Positions 3,924 to 48,118 of a stretch of 57,800 nucleotides of DNA are shown here, piece after piece (the first letter of the stretch is position 1; each line of letters starts with the position of its first letter). Under the pieces are notes generated by a model, which searched no databases, was not told the DNA's origin, and saw only the letters and a program-made list of their open reading frames with translations. A program made the position numbers and the translations under genes. The DNA is from a virus, in IMG/VR virus record IMGVR_UViG_3300050116_000283, positions 1 to 57,800 of that record, one strand, 5' to 3'.

Positions 3924-6900
3924 TTAGAACACCCTGGCGACCCGCCTGTTCGCAGGCAAAGGCGGCACGCGCCAACTAAGCAGAGTCAGATGGTCGACCG
4001 CCCAGAAGCCTATGATCGGTATCCCCGCGTTCACCGCCGCGAGGTACTGCGCGGTCCATGCGCACGCGCCGTTGAACCACGGCACGAGATAAGCCAGTGC
4101 CGGCTTCGCGTACGTCAACACCGAAAAACCGTAAGCCATGGCGGCCTTCGCCAGATCGATGTTCAAGTATGCAGTGCCCCAGGACAGCGCCTCCAGCTTC
4201 ACGCGGTCGATGTCCCCGTTCGGTGCCATATACTGCGACGGGATGTTGACGTAATTGTTCATCCGGCCGCCCTGCGGGTACGGATAGCCCGCGTTCCAAT
4301 AGACCGTCGGGTTGTTGGTGTCCATCGGCAGCAGCCATTCGATCTTGGCTCCCGCGTATGCCGCCTTCACTGCCTGCGCGATGGCGTGCATGTGGCTGTA
4401 GACCTGGGTGCGCAGGAAGTTCGCGTCCGCGTGCGAGTTGACGCTCGGGTCGTCGTCCTGCGTCCAGAAGCTGGCCAGCGCGCGCCCGAGCGCCGCCAGC
4501 GCCGCAGCCGCCGTGTAAGCGTCGTAATAGGCCATGCCGCCGCCGCTCACCGTGCCGCCCTCCGTATACGCCGCGTTCCCGTTCGATCCGGTCTCCGTGA
4601 AGTGCGTGGCATCCGTTACCACGATGGGCCACGTCCCGTTCGCCGCCGTCGTGCCTTCGACCGCCGCGACTATCGCGTTCTGGCCGGTGGAGAAGCCGTG
4701 CGCCGCGACCGTGCCGACTGAAATAGGAGCGGTCCAACTGGCGTACCCGATGGCCTCGTTCATCAGGCGCGAGAAGAACCACCAGCCCACCTCGCCCAAC
4801 TGGAGCCACGGCACGAGGCCCGCCGCCGCGAGAATTCCGGCAGCCTGCAGATAGCATTTTTCGAGGTAAGCGGTGACCGTCGCCGGGTTGAAGCAACACT
4901 GCTGGGTTTGCAGGTCGATCAGCGTCGTGGCGCCTGCTGCCACGGTGAACGCGGTCCCCGAGACGAGAGTCGTCAACTGGTAGTGGTCGGCGTCCGTGAC
5001 GATCACCGACCACACCGCACCGTTCGGCCCCTGCGCGATGTGGACAGTGTTTCCGGTGACGTACCCATGACCGATCTGCTCCACGGTCTGCGGTCCGGAC
5101 CCGCTCACTCCGTCGACGACGCCCGCGCCCCAGGAGCCGAAACCGGTGGCAGTCAAGACCGTCGCGCCGTTGGCGAAACGCTGGCACCAAGCGCCCGCCG
5201 CAGTCGCGGCGTCCGGCGGCGCGAGCAACTCTTGGGAGAACGCGACAGTCATGGTCTGCCCCGCCGCCTTCACCTCGGCGGCGAAGTCGGTCAAGAAATC
5301 TTTGAACGCGCGATTCAACGGCGAGGACTGCGACGCGTCCACCGCCCATGTGCCTTCGTTCCCGCCGGCCAGGGCGGTCGAACCGATGTCCCCGGCTACC
5401 GCGACCGCGATTCCGGCGCCGGTGCTCACCGACAGGTCCAGACTGAAGCCGTTGACGGGGCTGAGGACCGTGATGGTGAACTGTCCGGCGGTGGCGGTCG
5501 GAGCTGCGCAGATCCCGACGAACGTCCCGTTAATCGCGTTCACCATGCGCTGTGCGAGCGTGGCCAACGTGTCTGCCGGGTACGCCACCGCGCCCAGTAC
5601 CGTGCCGCCCAGCGAACTCCCGCCCGATGGATTGCCGCCAGTCGTCGTGGCCCCTGAAATCGTCGTGCCGGTGTTCGGGAAGGTTCCTCCCACTGTCAAC
5701 CACACCGTGTCCGCGCCGACGCCGAACGAGTTCCCCACATTGATGGTGCCGGTCAACGTCACCGTCGCCTGGTGAAAGTTCCCGCCGTTCCGGACTCTCT
5801 TAAGCGCGAAAAATACGCCCGCGTAGAAGTCGATGTCTCCCGTGAACCCGGCTTGGCTCAAAATCCACAGCAGGCGCGCGGGCGGGATCTGGTACGTTTG
5901 GCCGGTGTCGAAGTCGCAAGCGCAGTTGGCGTTGGCGTACGTCGCGGAAGGCGCCACCGGATCGGCCAGGACCGCCGCCTGGAGATAGTCGAACAAGCAC
6001 GTCCCGCTCGCCACCGTCAAAACGACCGTATGGGTGCCCGCCGCCACCGCGCTCGCAATCAACCGGCGGCCGGAGGTCGGACTGGCCGATGCCTGGAGCG
6101 AGTACGCGCTTACGGGAGCAACCGCCCCACCGTCCACTGTCGCGTCGACGGTTCCACCAAACGTCGAAAGCGCGGAGCCCAGATACAAGTTGTGGCTCGC
6201 CTGGCAGCTATAAGTGATCGTCACCGTGTCGCCCGCGTGCCCGCTCTGATATGCGAAGCCGCCCAGGTACCACCCGGCCACCTGCGTCCACCCGCTGCCG
6301 GCGCGCTTCGCCCAGGTGTCGTTCGACGGGATGGTGACCGAACCGGGCCCGGCCACCTTCAGCGGAGTAACACCGCCCGGATCGCCGACCGTCCAGTTGG
6401 CCAGGACCGCAGACCACTCCTGCGGCGCGAACGCCACCAGCGACGGGTTCACCGTGCCGGAGTCGTACGTCAGCGGAGGCGCGAACGTAAGCCACAACTG
6501 CCGGACCGCCGCCAGGCCCAGCGCGGAGAAATCCATGTGGACGTGTATCGACGTCGGGTCGGTCCCGCCGGTAAGCTTCGAGGCGCCGGCAGGCGTCAAA
6601 TAGCACGTCGCGGTCTTGTGCATCTCCAGCAATTCGATCCCGTTGCCGTCCACACCGACCGCCCGCGACTGGACTGTGAAGCTGCTGCCGGCCTGCGTCG
6701 CCTGCAAGACCGCGTTCGCGTTGATCTGTGCCACCAGTTGGGCGGCCACCCATGCCGTGAGGCTCGTGATTTCGAGAAGGAGTAAGCCCGTCCCGTTGCC
6801 ATCGGAAGCAGAGCATGTAACCTCTGCACCCGTGTTCAATTTCGGGGTGAGCTCCACATTATTCCCCGCCGCCACCGCCGTGGCGTTCGCGTCCGGTGCG

Positions 6901-41348: not shown

Positions 41349-41693
41349 ATGACACCGGAAGAGCGACGAATACTCTCTCCTCTCGCGCGCCAGCTGCGAC
41401 TGGGCGATCCAGGGAACTGGTCGGACTTGAAATACCAGACGCAGAACGGGCCAGAGTTCAGCGAATTTCCGTATTATCCCGCCGCGCTGGAATTTCAGGA
41501 TTCCGCCCAGCGTGCGGTCGCTGAGCTCGCCGCCGCCCAGAAGATCATTCTGCGTACTCAATGGCGATCAAAGTCTCGCTACCCGTACGAGTTCACGAAC
41601 GATGAGCGCATCTTAGTGCAATACGGTGTGATACTGGTCGATCTGATAGTGCAGCGGGCGCGGCAGGCGGGCGCGCGAACCAGCGAATTCTAA
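41349..41693 (+). CDS. Hypothetical protein on the opposite strand
   Basis: 114 aa with GGAGGG 4-5 nt before the ATG. Sequence: MTPEERRILSPLARQLRLGD, an aromatic middle (YPAALEFQDSAQRAVAEL) and a C-terminal helix (ILVQYGVILVDLIVQRAR). Family unknown. It is one of few plus-strand genes in the phage region; its stop overlaps the convergent gene at 41690-42394 by 4 bp. A divergent control region of 190 bp separates it from the gene ending at 40798. Confidence 0.65.
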   Translation: MTPEERRILSPLARQLRLGDPGNWSDLKYQTQNGPEFSEFPYYPAALEFQDSAQRAVAELAAAQKIILRTQWRSKSRYPYEFTNDERILVQYGVILVDLIVQRARQAGARTSEF

Positions 41694-42394
41694 CCAGGCG
41701 CCCGTCTAATCCACGGCTGTTCCACGTCCGGGTTATAGAATCGCGACCGTGTCTCACTTGGTGACGGCCCGATGAGTTCGATGGACTGCCGGGTGACCTC
41801 ACCAATCCGGTGACCGCCTCCGATATAGCACGCCATCCCATAACGCGCGGCAAAGGGCCGCCGCTCATAACCGTCTGAGAAGTACAAGCTTTCCATGGTC
41901 CAACCCAGCGCCAGCGCGCGATCGCAGACCTCGTCTATCAGTTGCTTCGCTCGAGCGATGCGTTCGGCTTCGAGGCTAAGCTTTGGAGGGGTTGGCTGCG
42001 TGGTTTCCGCGCCGTCGGACTCTTCAGGACGTGGCGGCCTGTAGTTGATCGAACGGAGCGTCCCAACTGCGGCGAGCAGTTGGACCTCGCCGAACCGGTC
42101 GATAGCCCAAGCATGAATGGCGTTGAAGCGCACCCGCAAGCACTCAAAGGCGGCTGCATCGAGATGCCCTGTGACTGCGGCCTTCTTGGCAACGACCATG
42201 CGTGCCCGCAGCCAGGCGTAGTACTCGGGATCAAGCCGCCGGTACATCGTATCGTTGAGCTGAAAGTCGCGCGCGAACTGCTCCGGACGTGCCGTCGTCC
42301 ACGTCGCTAGGGAGGTAGAAGCGAACAGGTGATCCCTAGGGGTGCCGTCCGGCGCGTCCGGCGACAATTTGACTTCCTGTAACTCGGTGCTCAT
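41690..42394 (-). CDS. Hypothetical protein, 234 aa
   Basis: AGGAG lies 7 nt before the ATG. The N-terminal half includes LNDTMYRRLDPEYYAWLRARMVVAKKAA, the middle is helical and the C-terminal third (YERRPFAARYGMACYIGGGHRIGEVTRQSIELIG) is beta-rich. The product has RARQ-like charge clusters and no catalytic motif I can identify. It follows the primase-helicase gene by 43 bp, so it belongs to the replication operon. Confidence 0.65.
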   Translation of the reverse strand: MSTELQEVKLSPDAPDGTPRDHLFASTSLATWTTARPEQFARDFQLNDTMYRRLDPEYYAWLRARMVVAKKAAVTGHLDAAAFECLRVRFNAIHAWAIDRFGEVQLLAAVGTLRSINYRPPRPEESDGAETTQPTPPKLSLEAERIARAKQLIDEVCDRALALGWTMESLYFSDGYERRPFAARYGMACYIGGGHRIGEVTRQSIELIGPSPSETRSRFYNPDVEQPWIRRAPG

Positions 42395-42437: not shown

Positions 42438-45400
42438 TTACGGTGGCTCTTCGCCGGCGGTTACCGTCGCGAGCCGCTGCTCCGCTCCGGTGGGGACATG
42501 GTGGGGACTTCTCTCGGCCAATGTCCCCACCATTAAGTGCTCATGTTTTGTGTCAGTTGCGGGCGTGGTGGGGACAGTGGGGACATTAGTGGCACTTTCA
42601 GGCCACCTACTAATATTGTTTTCTTTCTCGTCGTGTATGTGTTCCCGGCACGCGTGATTTTCTCCCGCGCGAGAATTCCGGGTTATGTCCCCACTGTCCC
42701 CACTGTCCCCACCGTCTCCGTAACCAATTGATTCGATTGGCAAAAGTTGGTGGGGACATTGGTCGAGAGAAGTCCCCACCATCTCCCCACCGACCAAGTC
42801 CAGCAGGTTGGTACTACTGGAACTGGCACCCCGCGGGTTATCGGGCCCGTCCGCTAACGCGAGGGCATAAAGCACGCCGGTCTTGTGATTGTTATGGCTG
42901 CTTTGCTTTACCGTGAGCCCGTTGAATACTCGATCACGCTTCGCGGCAAGCGCCTTGCCCAAACGGGTCTGCTGCGAGCGCGCCGAGCCGTCTCCACGCA
43001 CGCTGAGCATCAGGTCGCGCTCTTCGCAAAACTGGTTCAGTTCGCCAACTTTCTTTGGTTCCTCGCGATATGCCTCCCACCAGGTTCCGGTGAACTCGCG
43101 CCACATCTGACCATCGGTATCCGCCGCTTCATAGAGTTCGTTCAGATTGCAGAGGAAGCCGGGGATTCCCGCAACCTCCAACACGCCGCCCATGATTCCG
43201 GACCAGCTTTCGAACGACCCCAGGCGCGTCGCGTGCAAGGGTTTCCCGGCAGCGATCCAGGCTTGAACCACGGTGAGTGCTGCATGGACGAGCGCCGAAC
43301 GATTCTCTCGGGCCCATTCGGTGATGAGCGGGTGTTTGAATCCCGCTCTCAGCCACGGCATGTCGATCCTCGGATCAATGCGGAGCCGGATGCAACGCCG
43401 GCTCATCTCGCCAGATAGCCGTGGGTTGTTGCCGGTCATCAGCCAAAGGGCATTGTTCCGGAGGTGCAACATCGTGGATTCGCCCAGGAGTCGATCCGTC
43501 CACCACGGCAGCGTCACAACGGATGCTAGCGCGGCTGAATCCAGTTTCCGTTTCTCACTGAGGTTGTCGAGGAGGATGATGGGCCGGCCTGTAATCAGTT
43601 CAGCCGTGATCATCTTCCGAACCTCGTCCTCGCTTTCCGGTACAGTCCGTCCTTCGGACGCAGAACCAGTCGAAACGATGCTGATCAAACTGGCCAGCAG
43701 CCCTTTACCGGAGCCCTGCGTGGGCGCCTCGATCAGGTGTATCGGAGCAAGGTCGCCAATGATGCGCTGCAGAAAGGGGAGGAGTATTGCGGCGACGGCA
43801 TGAGCGCGATCCGAATCGCTTACAAACGGGAAGTCCCCGAGCAGTTCATCCACTAGCAGCCCTCTAGCGTGCGCGATTTGCTCCCGTGAGGGAATGATTG
43901 GAACTTCCGGGATTTCCAACGACTCGTCGGAGAACATCCAGAGCGCGTCGGCGCGATGGTAGCCGGCAGCGATGATCAACGCGGCGTCCTTTCCAAATGT
44001 CGGGGTACGAACCACCGATTCCAGCGGCGGGAGCGCCGGATCCGGGTTCACCATCATGTCTCGGGCCGTATCCCTCGATGGCGGCGCAGCGAGCACCGCT
44101 TCCTCGGTCACTCTGAGCCAGTTGGCGCTTCGGGCCAGTATGCCGTACATCGCCGTGTCGCCGAGCGCTTCGATCCGCCCCTGGGTGCCCGTGCCGGCAA
44201 TGCGCACAAGAGCGCCGCCTTTCTGGAAGAGGAACGGCTTATCGGTGATGTCTGGCCCCACTGGCTCGTTAATCGCGTGAATCGCCGTCCAGGCGTCGGC
44301 GATCACGTCACGCAATTGCCGATTGTTGACCTGGATGCCCCGCAGCGGCTGTGGTTCCGGCGCGCCGACCGGGGCGGTCGCGGCGTTTCCCCTCGGACTG
44401 CCGCCGCCGAGTACACCAGTCTGGGTCGCGCGCCGCGGGCGAGCGATTTCCACGACCTTCAATTGCTTCCGAAGGGTGGTGACCGGCAGCCGGATCTTCC
44501 CACACCGCGCCTGAATCAGCCTGAGGTACCGATCCTGTTCAATGGGGGCGAGCCGGCCGACCTCCGATAGAATCGGCTCGATTATCCGGCTGAGATCAGC
44601 ATCCGGAACATCGGTACTGAGCTTTGAGATGGCCAGTTCCAGCGGGGTCTGGGCTGCCGCGAGGATACCTTCGAAATCGGCCGCCGTCTTCCCCGAGGCG
44701 AAGAACTCGTTAACGTCAATCTTGGCGTCGGCCAGTAGCGCTTCGGCTTCGGCGCTTCCGCCTGGCAACGCGCCCAGCTTCTCCCGAGCCGAACGCTGCT
44801 TCTCGGCGAGAGGCAAAACCGCCACGCGAGTCGCAATCCCGTGAGCGGAGAGAAACCGCGCGGTCTTCAGCGCGCCCTGCATCCCCGCCTCGGACATTTC
44901 GTTGTCCTGGCAGATGTAGACGGTTTTCACACCGGCGAGTTTTGGCAGCAACCGTTCCCAGTCGGCCTCGCGGATCTGCACCGTTACCGGTGACACCACC
45001 GGGAATCCGTGCTCCATCAGGGAAATGCAATCCGTGACCCCTTCGGTGATGACGACCCGCTCGGGCCGCGCAAGCAGCACATCCTCGTTGTAGAGGACGT
45101 CATTCCGGATGTACGGCGAGATGTGGCTGTTGTTGCGGTCGTTGCGAATCGCCAGTTTCTTGTACTTCGACTTCTCCCACTCCTGATCCGGCGTCCAGGG
45201 CGTGCGCCGTCCGATCATGAAGACGACGTGTCCGCGACTCCAATATGGGAAGACGATCCGGCCATCGAAAAAGGGGAGCAGTCCGTCCTGCGCCGTGGGC
45301 TTGAAGACGGAGGTGGCCGTCAGTTCGCGCATGGTGAAGGCGCCAGGCCCGACCATCAACGTGCGCGCCACGCTGGGCTCGCTATTTTCCGCGTACCCGA

Positions 45401-45929
45401 TCTGCAAACGGCCGATCGTCTCCTCGCTGATTCCGTATTTCCCCCGAAACCAGGCGAGGACCTCCGGGTTCCCGACGAGCCTCTGGTGATACACACCCGC
45501 AGACGCGGTCAGCGCCTCACGCACGCGAAGCCTGATCTGGTGAGCTTCCTCGGCCTGCTCCGGATTGCCGGCAGCGAGCGTCGACAAAGGCGGCAGTCGA
45601 ACGCGTGCCGCCAGAAAGTCGCGAGCTTGCCGGTGGGAGTCCGGCATTGAGCCAGACTGCCCGCGGGTGACCACGCCGAAACGGACGAACTCGACCAACT
45701 GCAGCACATCGCCGCCGGTGCCACAGGCGTGGCAAAACCAGCCCTGCTTGTCGAGCCAGACATGAAGCGAGCGGTGCGACTGGCTCCGGTGGTTCGGGCA
45801 ATCGCAATACAGGGTCTGCCGCGATTCCTGCGTAATGCGGCCGCCGAGGAGTTCGCGGCCTATCTCGCCAATGTCCACATCGGTGACCTGCCGGTAGTAG
45901 TCGTGGATATCTACCGGAAGCGCAGTCAC
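42438..45929 (-). CDS. Large primase-helicase (CHC2 zinc finger, TOPRIM, P-loop)
   Basis: The GTG at 45929 overlaps the upstream stop as GTGA and gives 1163 aa; the 29-codon extension is discarded. Residues about 40-75 hold a CHC2-type zinc finger (CDCPNHRSQSHRSL...FCHACGTGGD). TOPRIM residues follow near 285-300 (VVITEGVTDCISLMEHG) with VYICQDNEMSEAG near 330. From about 700 there is a DUF927-like helicase: P-loop EAPTQGSGKGLLAS near 735 and Walker B RPIILLDNLSEK near 780. The last 150 residues are low-complexity and encoded by the iteron region. It should unwind and prime phage DNA. Family lengths vary. Confidence 0.85.
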   Translation of the reverse strand: MTALPVDIHDYYRQVTDVDIGEIGRELLGGRITQESRQTLYCDCPNHRSQSHRSLHVWLDKQGWFCHACGTGGDVLQLVEFVRFGVVTRGQSGSMPDSHRQARDFLAARVRLPPLSTLAAGNPEQAEEAHQIRLRVREALTASAGVYHQRLVGNPEVLAWFRGKYGISEETIGRLQIGYAENSEPSVARTLMVGPGAFTMRELTATSVFKPTAQDGLLPFFDGRIVFPYWSRGHVVFMIGRRTPWTPDQEWEKSKYKKLAIRNDRNNSHISPYIRNDVLYNEDVLLARPERVVITEGVTDCISLMEHGFPVVSPVTVQIREADWERLLPKLAGVKTVYICQDNEMSEAGMQGALKTARFLSAHGIATRVAVLPLAEKQRSAREKLGALPGGSAEAEALLADAKIDVNEFFASGKTAADFEGILAAAQTPLELAISKLSTDVPDADLSRIIEPILSEVGRLAPIEQDRYLRLIQARCGKIRLPVTTLRKQLKVVEIARPRRATQTGVLGGGSPRGNAATAPVGAPEPQPLRGIQVNNRQLRDVIADAWTAIHAINEPVGPDITDKPFLFQKGGALVRIAGTGTQGRIEALGDTAMYGILARSANWLRVTEEAVLAAPPSRDTARDMMVNPDPALPPLESVVRTPTFGKDAALIIAAGYHRADALWMFSDESLEIPEVPIIPSREQIAHARGLLVDELLGDFPFVSDSDRAHAVAAILLPFLQRIIGDLAPIHLIEAPTQGSGKGLLASLISIVSTGSASEGRTVPESEDEVRKMITAELITGRPIILLDNLSEKRKLDSAALASVVTLPWWTDRLLGESTMLHLRNNALWLMTGNNPRLSGEMSRRCIRLRIDPRIDMPWLRAGFKHPLITEWARENRSALVHAALTVVQAWIAAGKPLHATRLGSFESWSGIMGGVLEVAGIPGFLCNLNELYEAADTDGQMWREFTGTWWEAYREEPKKVGELNQFCEERDLMLSVRGDGSARSQQTRLGKALAAKRDRVFNGLTVKQSSHNNHKTGVLYALALADGPDNPRGASSSSTNLLDLVGGEMVGTSLDQCPHQLLPIESIGYGDGGDSGDSGDITRNSRAGENHACREHIHDEKENNISRWPESATNVPTVPTTPATDTKHEHLMVGTLAERSPHHVPTGAEQRLATVTAGEEPP
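42488..42792. repeat. Large inverted repeat with GTGGGGAC iterons, candidate replication origin
   Basis: A 45-bp arm at 42488-42532 and its inverse at 42748-42792 differ at only two positions. Inside each arm are further copies of GTGGGGAC or its complement. I count ten exact copies: 42490, 42501, 42523, 42568, 42577, 42687, 42696, 42705, 42750 and 42772. Five point each way. The centre (about 42605-42640) is AT-rich. The whole lies in the 3' end of the primase-helicase gene, the usual place for iterons that bind a phage or plasmid initiator. Alternative: a large transcript hairpin or repeat-driven coding tail. Confidence 0.7.
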
Positions 45930-48118
45930 TGCCGTGCCTCCGGGTGGAGCAGGAAGGAGAGAAACGTGTTTCTCCGGTCCACCTGGCGTTTGGCGGCGCA
46001 GTTGTCGATGCCCCACCGGTCCCCGAGAAGAATCACGGAGTCCTTCGCGCGCGTCACCGCGGTGTACAGCAGATTTCGGTGGTGCATGAAGGAATGCGAC
46101 TTGTGGGCGATCACGACCGCGCAGGGAAATTCTGATCCCTGAACTTTGTGGATCGACGTCGCGTAGGCCAACTGGATATTGCCGAGCGCATCGCTGCCGC
46201 TCTTGATCTCTACCCGCCGGCCATCGAAATCGATGGAAAGACTGCCGTCCGGCGTGGCGTCAACCACGACGCCCATCGCGCCGTTCATGACGCCCAATTC
46301 GTAGTCGTTCTTCGTCTGGATCACCTTGTCGCCCGGATATGGCCGCGCGCGGTGGCCAGCCTCGACGGTAGGCACATCCACCCCGAACAACTTCTGCTGC
46401 AAGAGGCGCTGCAACTCGATATTCAACTCCACTGTGCCGAGCGGGCCTTTGTGCGTCGGCGTGAGCACCTGAACTTCACGAATCAGGTCGTAGCCGAGCC
46501 GCTCCTGCAGCACTTCTTCGAAGAGGAGCAGTAGCATTCGGCGAACATCGTCGCGGTCTGCGAACTTATCGATGACGTACCAGGGCCGGCGCGCGCCGCC
46601 GAACGAATCCGAGGTAGGTCGAACCTCGCCGTTGAGGATGGCTGTGGAGTTCTCTTTCAGAACACCGGCCTGGCGGATGATCCGGGTGAGCACCGTGGTC
46701 GGGATCGCCATGGACCGCACAAGGTCTCGCAGGAGGTTACCCGGGCCCACCGGCGGCAACTGGTTGTGATCCCCGACAAGAACCACGGCGGTGCGCATGC
46801 GATCCACCGCCTGGAACAACCGCCAGGCGAGGGCGATATCCACCATCGAGACTTCGTCCACGACGAGAATGTCCGCGTCAATCGGGTTCAGCGCGTCCCG
46901 CGAATAAGTGTTGCCGTTGAAGCCCAACAGGCGATGAATGGTACTTGCCTCATGGCCAACTACTTCCTCGAGGCGTTTTGCAGCCTTTCCAGTGGGCGCT
47001 GCGAGCACGATCTTTAACTCCAATCGTTCGGCGACGCTGGCGATGGTCGATACCGCGTATGTCTTGCCGCTACCGGCGCCGCCGGTCATGAGCGAGATGG
47101 AAAAGTTGAGGGCGTTCCTGACTGCATCGCGTTGCTCGGGATTCAATTCGCCGCCCTCAGCATCGAGAAGATCCTCTACCTCGGTGACAGCGTGCGGGCT
47201 GCGCTGACCGGCGGTCTTCAGGATTTCGGCGATATCTGTTTCCATCCGGAGAATCTCCGGATCGGCAACTACCAACCGCTCGAACGGCTGCGAGACAAGC
47301 CGCCCCTCGGCAATCAGAGCTTCGAGATGCTCTTCAATCACGTGACGGCTGTCGAGTGTGTCCATCACCAGGAGCGTGTTGGCGCGGTCAAGCAAGTCTT
47401 CGTACTCGACCCAGCAGTCCCCGTCATCGAGGGCGGCCAGCACGCAGTAATGGAGCCCGGCGCGAAGCCGCGAGGGAAGGTCCTTGGGCGTTCCCATCTT
47501 GCGGGCGATCTTGTCGACGCGCTTGAAGCCGTAGCCGGTGATTTCCCGCATCAGCACATAGGGATCGTTCTCCAGGATCGGCACGACCTGGCTGCCGAAT
47601 TTGCCCACCAGCGTCGTCACCTGGTGATGGGTGAGCCCGAAGCGGGACAGGTAGGTCATGGCGGCGTTGAAGTCGCTGTTGGCAATCCAGATACGTTGGA
47701 GATCCAGGATCGCCTCCACCGGCGCCTTCGCGATTGTGGCCACGGTCTCGGGCTGACTGCGGATCGCCGTGTCGAAGCGCGCGCCGAAATGGTCGGCGAT
47801 CAGCCGGGCTTTGACCGGTCCGATCCCTTTCACGTCCGGGTGATTCGCCAGGAAGTTTGCCAGCCCATCCGCGTCCATCTCCTGATCGAAGCCCATGCAA
47901 TCGGCCGCGAACTGCCGTCCGTACTTCGGATGGTGGGTCCAATGGCCTTCCAGACGAACAGAATCATTCTCCCTGGCGAACACCTTGCCGGCAAACGTAA
48001 TGAGATTACCGTCCGATGTCCGGAGGCGCCCGGCGCTGAACGCCGGGCCAGAATAGAAGACCATTTCCACGATGCCGCGGAGAGAACATCGGACCTCTGA
48101 GGTTGCCGCCTTCGTCAT
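45926..48118 (-). CDS. RecD2-like DNA helicase
   Basis: With the ATG at 48118 (ATGA overlap with the upstream stop) the product is 730 aa. The N-terminal part has an OB/HhH region (GLANFLANHPDVKGIGPVKARLI near 90-110). Superfamily 1B motifs follow: Walker A GGAGSGKTYAVSTIAS near 344, Walker B ILVVDEVSMVD near 418, VVLVGDHNQLPPVGPGN, and late motifs TSIHKVQGSEFPCAVV and YTAVTRAKDSVILLGD. RecD2-type enzymes move 5'-3' and act in recombination or fork restart. It has no RecB partner here. The following primase is coupled by GTGA. Confidence 0.9.
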   Translation of the reverse strand: MTKAATSEVRCSLRGIVEMVFYSGPAFSAGRLRTSDGNLITFAGKVFARENDSVRLEGHWTHHPKYGRQFAADCMGFDQEMDADGLANFLANHPDVKGIGPVKARLIADHFGARFDTAIRSQPETVATIAKAPVEAILDLQRIWIANSDFNAAMTYLSRFGLTHHQVTTLVGKFGSQVVPILENDPYVLMREITGYGFKRVDKIARKMGTPKDLPSRLRAGLHYCVLAALDDGDCWVEYEDLLDRANTLLVMDTLDSRHVIEEHLEALIAEGRLVSQPFERLVVADPEILRMETDIAEILKTAGQRSPHAVTEVEDLLDAEGGELNPEQRDAVRNALNFSISLMTGGAGSGKTYAVSTIASVAERLELKIVLAAPTGKAAKRLEEVVGHEASTIHRLLGFNGNTYSRDALNPIDADILVVDEVSMVDIALAWRLFQAVDRMRTAVVLVGDHNQLPPVGPGNLLRDLVRSMAIPTTVLTRIIRQAGVLKENSTAILNGEVRPTSDSFGGARRPWYVIDKFADRDDVRRMLLLLFEEVLQERLGYDLIREVQVLTPTHKGPLGTVELNIELQRLLQQKLFGVDVPTVEAGHRARPYPGDKVIQTKNDYELGVMNGAMGVVVDATPDGSLSIDFDGRRVEIKSGSDALGNIQLAYATSIHKVQGSEFPCAVVIAHKSHSFMHHRNLLYTAVTRAKDSVILLGDRWGIDNCAAKRQVDRRNTFLSFLLHPEARQ

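Follow-up and report, generated by a model that had tools for sequence, protein, structure and literature searches.

A conserved iteron grid in the 3' tail of a primase-helicase gene is a probable replication origin of Acidobacteria phages

The replication origin of PICI/SaPI elements lies just 3' of pri-rep and consists of two iteron sets arranged around an AT-rich region (PMC6092414, PMC7581432). In the Streptomyces plasmid pWTY27, RepA binds its own iteron region specifically, as determined by EMSA and footprinting, and this region comprises five copies of GTGGGAAC and five inverted copies. The repAB genes and the iterons together form the basic (minimal) replicon of the plasmid, which replicates bidirectionally (PMC3583192). 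The locus described here belongs to a soil phage and was analyzed within a 57,800-base virus record from IMG/VR (IMGVR_UViG_3300050116_000283), hereafter called the window. Its primase-helicase gene carries an array of short repeats that, judged by sequence comparison and analogy, is very probably the bidirectional (theta) origin of the phage, of the pri-rep-ori kind and served by its own D5/SF3-type self-loading primase-helicase. For most tailed phages in which primase and helicase are fused, no origin is known to have been mapped.

The open reading frame (ORF) that contains the array is built from two halves. The N-terminal half, with a zinc ribbon, DnaG_N and Toprim, matches a DnaG-type primase (Pfam), and the C-terminal half comprises a D5/SF3-like helicase and a predicted winged helix, followed by a long low-complexity tail. 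The helicase half has no Pfam match and is assigned to phrog_10537 and phrog_19930; its alignment likewise yielded no match among the sequences of solved structures (PDB). An AlphaFold2 (AF2) model of residues 601-1058 (pLDDT 79) resembles vaccinia D5, AsfvPrimPol, SCCmec Cch, SaPI5 PriRep, SaPIbov1 Rep and the C-terminal region of NrS-1 (Z 10-12). In model numbering, the winged helix contains helices 390-399, 404-407 and 412-425 and then a beta hairpin at 434-454. Nearby genes in the window encode a RecD-like helicase, an SSB-like protein, a Sak4-like protein, an exonuclease and a terminase large subunit (PHROG), and a 234-aa protein encoded at 41690-42394 matches neither Pfam nor PHROG. The gene features are:

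42438..46016, minus strand: primase-helicase/initiator ORF, 1192 aa (Pfam DNAG_N, Toprim_2, Zn_ribbon_DnaG; phrog_10537, phrog_19930, phrog_47)
42843..44216, minus strand: RepA/D5-like initiator helicase half, residues 601-1058 (identity to pWTY27 RepA, shared PHROGs, AF2)
42849..43064, minus strand: predicted winged-helix DNA-binding domain, about residues 985-1056 (AF2, covarying columns)
42942..42983, minus strand: predicted recognition helix, residues 1012-1025, with putative specificity positions 1017 and 1021 (AF2)
42438..42848, minus strand: coding tail crossing the putative origin (comparison of frame and C-terminal peptide)
41690..42394, minus strand: conserved 234-aa gene just past the putative origin, present after the array in relatives too

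An earlier note on this DNA had proposed an origin with iterons inside the primase-helicase gene, formed by ten exact copies of GTGGGGAC, five in each direction, around an AT-rich centre and bounded by 45-bp inverted arms with two differences. The whole-window motif count and the GC profile confirm this description. Ten exact copies occur within 42490-42790, five on each strand, and an eleventh with one change lies at 42783-42790, whereas the other 57.5 kb of the window contain only two exact copies and whole-window shuffles yield a mean of 2.4 and a maximum of 7. The arms, 42488-42532 and 42748-42792, are complementary at 43 of 45 positions (96%). The array centre has a GC content of 0.43-0.47 against about 0.62 window-wide, and its lowest 60-bp stretch falls within the bottom 0.1% of the window. 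Every copy of the array is situated in the 3' tail of the ORF. Read on the primase strand, the sites follow the order > 11 > 23 < 44 > 9 > 9 > 111 < 9 < 44 > 23 < 11 <, and their positions in the window are:

42490, 42501, 42523, 42568, 42577, 42687, 42696, 42705, 42750, 42772: starts of the exact GTGGGGAC copies, five per strand
42488..42532: origin-distal arm, with iterons 42490-42497 (plus), 42501-42508 (plus) and 42523-42530 (minus), the last two forming a convergent pair
42568..42584, plus strand: inner direct iterons 42568-42575 and 42577-42584, 9-bp pitch
42590..42684: AT-richer centre, candidate melting region (GC profile)
42687..42712, minus strand: inner direct iterons 42687-42694, 42696-42703 and 42705-42712, 9-bp pitch
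42748..42792: origin-proximal arm, with iterons 42750-42757 (plus), 42772-42779 (minus) and the degenerate 42783-42790 (minus)

GC skew across the window shows no switch at the array, which counts against reading it as an origin; skew was consequently dropped as an origin marker.

The helicase half is homologous to pWTY27 RepA, with 35.4% identity over 81% of the query (tblastn, E 1e-54), and both proteins belong to phrog_10537 and phrog_19930. The iteron region of pWTY27 (NC_013667.2) lies directly downstream of repA, and its sites are ordered > 11 > 17 < 39 > 9 > 73 < 9 < 39 > 17 < 11 <. The window shares two hallmarks of a pWTY27-type theta origin, for which specific binding and bidirectional replication are shown in pWTY27 itself: a homologous RepA helicase beside the array, and a dyad grid of about ten 8-bp iterons in the same order and orientation, with somewhat different distances. 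A second Streptomyces plasmid with a related RepA carries CGTGGGAAC sites at distances of 19 + 47 = 66 bp. The proposed origin is therefore supported by a homologous plasmid RepA that binds the same grid, as well as by the conservation of the grid among relatives.

Relatives were collected by protein search, which gave at first 25 viral loci and later 76 loci in bacterial or archaeal genomes and 79 viral loci. The close relatives are mainly from Acidobacteria (mostly Bryobacterales/Solibacter in the genome scan), and one locus, L032 from a Ca. Sulfopaludibacter MAG, is 96% identical to the query alignment. Arrays were detected automatically as the commonest 7-mer within 420-450-bp windows. By this search, nearly every complete close relative has a dense array at the 3' end of its primase gene. 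The letters of the iteron are uniform within an element and differ from element to element (GTGGGGA, GGGGAAC, GTCTCCA, ATCCCCA, GTCGGGA, TGGAACA, GGTCCAC and others), while the grid is retained. Measured from the convergent pair to the inner sites, the distance is 66 or 67 bp in 30 of 34 cases on the left side and in 25 of 30 on the right. The inner sites keep a pitch of 9 bp, and the centre, which spans 99-119 bp, coincides in most relatives with a local minimum of GC content (median 2nd percentile). The earlier note had suggested that spacing should be kept in homologues while codons vary, and the comparison came out as predicted. The near-perfect 45-bp dyad, by contrast, did not hold up as a conserved feature: sequence between the convergent iterons is 93% complementary in the window and on average 57% in relatives, hardly better than the 54% of the non-pairing orientation, so the long arms are a peculiarity of the window and it is the grid of short sites that is conserved.

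The array adjoins the helicase in 34 of the 35 loci that have the window's helicase module and enough flanking sequence. The sole locus without an array, L166/L214 (IMGVR_UViG_3300048503_000178), has a truncated DNA-binding domain as well: its primase is cut inside the recognition helix, and the winged-helix end and the array are both missing. Helix and origin are lost together here, through either a natural deletion or an assembly join. Homologues with the same primase and no repeats, which the earlier note had named as evidence against an origin, are limited to this truncated locus and a few distant relatives of at most 49% identity; no array was found near the gene in the distant relatives L190, L217 and L219. 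The ORF ends before or within the array in L084, L140-L142, L089 and L018, and the array is still present. Location of the array inside the gene is thus a feature of the lineage and not a requirement.

Across these loci, one primase half (DnaG/Toprim) is joined to three C-terminal modules: the RepA/D5-like module of the window, a VapE-type module (PF05272) and a module of phrog_47 type. A separate iteron family lies immediately downstream of each module, which suggests that the C-terminal half reads the sites. VapE-type loci are L020, L023-L029, L036, L042 and L045-L047, and phrog_47-type loci are L030, L031 and, in part, L051-L099. The VapE-type and phrog_47-type modules look unrelated, and the pattern is one of modular exchange of helicase together with origin. 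In one MAG, bin-0121, each of three elements (L034, L038, L091) has a different iteron, as would be expected if elements avoid interfering with one another; contrary to this, another MAG has two elements with an identical iteron (L037, L074).

Related layouts were also encountered outside this set. A scan of viral contigs for the GTGGGGAC triple by pattern only gave three matches. In L001 (1365-3842), a D5_N/Pox_D5 primase-helicase of another family has a GTGGGGAC array in its 3' coding tail. L002 has a GTGGGGAC triple inside its primase gene and a separate array after that gene: about 19 copies of GTAGGGG (12 exact in one 450-bp stretch), at 5316-5900, directly follow its DUF5906 primase-helicase gene, and this array is probably another origin of the same kind. 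The third match, L003, was rejected as an unrelated coding repeat. L171 and L181 are two primase genes of the 83-kb viral contig IMGVR_UViG_3300028837_004134, separated by about 50 kb, and a CCTTCGC-type array follows each of them; either the contig has two candidate origins or its assembly is mixed or duplicated.

The grid suggests how initiation might proceed. Most likely, the C-terminal winged helix of each subunit would read one iteron of 8-10 bp. The iterons form two mirror groups, in each of which two or three direct sites follow at 9-bp pitch and a convergent pair lies 66-67 bp farther out; these groups would seat two oppositely facing ring-helicase assemblies of D5/SF3 type. These assemblies would melt the AT-richer centre of about 100 bp, load themselves and travel outward, and the fused Toprim primase half would lay primers and start synthesis. 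Double-hexamer loading and melting of the centre are inferred by analogy with SaPI-type and D5-type helicases, and origin activity in the window phage is also an inference.

Inverted iteron groups also serve in copy control and partition of plasmids, and a grid by itself is no proof of initiation. The same protein or another phage regulator might accordingly bind the repeats at an operator, a copy-control site or a centromere-like partition site and not at a replication start. This alternative is improbable, since the repAB-iteron segment of the homologous pWTY27 is a minimal replicon, the pri-rep-ori segments of PICIs, in which two iteron sets flank an AT-rich region, do replicate, and an AT-richer centre suits a melting site.

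Less probable still is a role in RNA, in which the dyad would give the primase message a long 3'-terminal hairpin that acts as terminator, stability element or regulatory RNA. The window RNA does fold into one long hairpin (-179.8 kcal/mol, z -13.8), and fold z-scores are strong in relatives too, but such folding is expected, as any inverted repeat must fold. Conservation does not follow pairing. Potential hairpin partners differ by 0.60 mismatches per 9 bp, compared with 0.58 for same-orientation, non-pairing copies, and spacer pairing in relatives is 0.57 against 0.54 in the wrong orientation. Moreover, neighboring direct copies change in concert, the homologue pWTY27 RepA binds DNA, and Rfam gives no credible match (sub-threshold miRNA-like matches only, from the GC-rich hairpin). 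The RNA-structure reading was rejected: the folding energy is strong, yet there is no pairing-specific conservation. The proposal that the DNA repeats simply reflect a low-complexity protein tail with VPT and GD repeats is barely tenable, for although most relatives keep the frame and have a C-terminal peptide under protein-level selection, the copies lie on both strands and in several frames, substitutions between the window and L007 at the three codon positions number 26, 21 and 38 in the tail against 5, 0 and 33 (third-position bias) in the domain, and the array is kept where a stop precedes it (L084, L140-L142, L089).

Protein-level constraint on the tail nevertheless exists alongside the putative origin. 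In most relatives the frame is open through the array and ends in a peptide of the form [IVL]DL[AT]x[LF], whose codons vary mainly at synonymous sites; it is found at the C-terminal ends of L008-L017, L022, L034-L041, L078, L091 and L218 and has been lost in the window and L007. Given the open frame and the conserved peptide, many of these phages probably translate the tail, with the origin DNA doubling as linker-coding sequence. This linker sets the peptide apart from the winged helix, and the peptide possibly binds a partner.

The variation in iteron letters was compared with the protein across 24 non-redundant elements. Iterons were placed by hand, from their spacing, in a register of positions p1-p10 (in the window, GTGGGGACAT), and each of 458 helicase columns was ranked by its association with each position. 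For p8, residue 1017 ranks first of the 458 columns, T/S occurring with C and I/V with T (the uncertain L215 aside). For p9, residues 1021 and 1038 tie for best of 458; at 1021, K accompanies G/A and S/N/T mostly C, while L018 combines R with T, and L012 and L078 are exceptions (N with G). The best column for p5 is 989, where K changes to R with A, and those for p6 and p2 are 1044 and 1046. All of these top columns (p2, p5, p6, p8, p9) map to the winged helix; in the AF2 model, the recognition helix contains 1017 and 1021, and the tip of the wing contains 1044-1046. Positions p1, p3, p4, p7 and p10 are uninformative, as too few elements vary or whole clades are separated. No rule rests on L215, whose array assignment is uncertain and whose register was set by hand.

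These associations come from a small sample of related elements, some of them registered by hand. When a tree is built from the helicase core with the winged helix excluded, a change at 1017 accompanies four of the five p8 changes, and L012 and L078 (both I1017, with T at p8) fall within a group of T1017/C relatives. Two relatives added once the pattern was known also conform to it, namely L218 (T1017, K1021; GGGACA) and L213 (V1017, N1021; GGGATC). The winged helix adjoins the array, so the pair may also move together by recombination and thereby contribute to the covariation; nevertheless, residue 1017 stands out among winged-helix columns that are equally linked to the array. At the level of sequence, iteron and winged helix changing together present an apparent natural specificity code.

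Taken further, the rigid grid may mark the identity of the replicon: specificity would switch jointly in the winged helix and in the 10-14 dispersed sites that it reads, according to a code, and in most lineages the ORF would span the origin and encode a flexible linker and a conserved C-terminal peptide. This proposal is tentative, with chances somewhat below even, and the same joint estimate covers the code that it includes (C for T/S1017 and T for I/V1017, a purine for K1021, mostly C for S/N/T1021, and A at position 5 for K-to-R at 989). Such a code gives testable residue-to-base predictions, and the relatives are a natural experiment on a long-standing question of iteron replicons, in which an initiator and about a dozen scattered sites switch specificity together. 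They also indicate that a reading frame which is open and probably translated can contain an origin. Within the open-access literature searched, no description of such a phage origin or code was found, and a search for GTGGGGAC as a string returned nothing relevant. The kind of origin is already known, as pri-rep-ori and from pWTY27; what is new is its occurrence in Acidobacteria phages, its embedding in an open reading frame, a strict grid whose letters change freely, and a code that can be read from the relatives.

Among described systems, PICI/SaPI elements (SaPIbov1, SaPI5, EcCICFT073) likewise combine a primase with a self-loading Rep helicase, sometimes fused (PMC6092414, PMC7581432). 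The window shares their origin position at the 3' end of the gene and their two iteron sets flanking an AT-rich region, here inside the ORF. The predicted fold is like that of SaPI Rep/PriRep (Z 10-11), yet the sequence has no detectable similarity to SaPI Rep chains of solved structure. Unlike PICI/SaPI, the window has a DnaG-type Toprim primase half and an array within the ORF; nor is it a satellite, but a tailed phage that has its own genes for recombination and replication and a terminase large subunit of phage type. In the PLE satellite RepA/ori, as here, the DNA-binding domain of the initiator and the iterons covary between relatives, and in PLE they are functionally matched; PLE differs in its RepA_N-type initiator of an unrelated family and in its three iterons of about 30 bp in a separate noncoding region (PMC8263062). 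ORF904 of pRN1 also unites primase, SF3 helicase and winged helix in a single protein, and an essential inverted-repeat origin with letters varying between relatives lies just downstream. However, pRN1 is an archaeal plasmid with an archaeo-eukaryotic primase, and its origin is described as a stem-loop and not as an iteron grid (PMC4234260).

The likeness to pWTY27 extends to the RepA/D5-like helicase, the array at the 3' side of the gene, the sites themselves (GTGGGAAC versus GTGGGGAC) and the dyad around a centre. Unlike in the window, the pWTY27 array is intergenic, and its primase is a separate protein, RepB, annotated as primase/polymerase. The distance from convergent pair to inner sites is 56 bp in pWTY27 compared with 66-67 bp, and the centre measures 73 compared with about 110. 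pWTY27 is a plasmid of an actinobacterial host, whereas the window comes from a phage; its putative origin is recognizable by eye and ties Acidobacteria phages to an experimentally studied actinobacterial plasmid origin.
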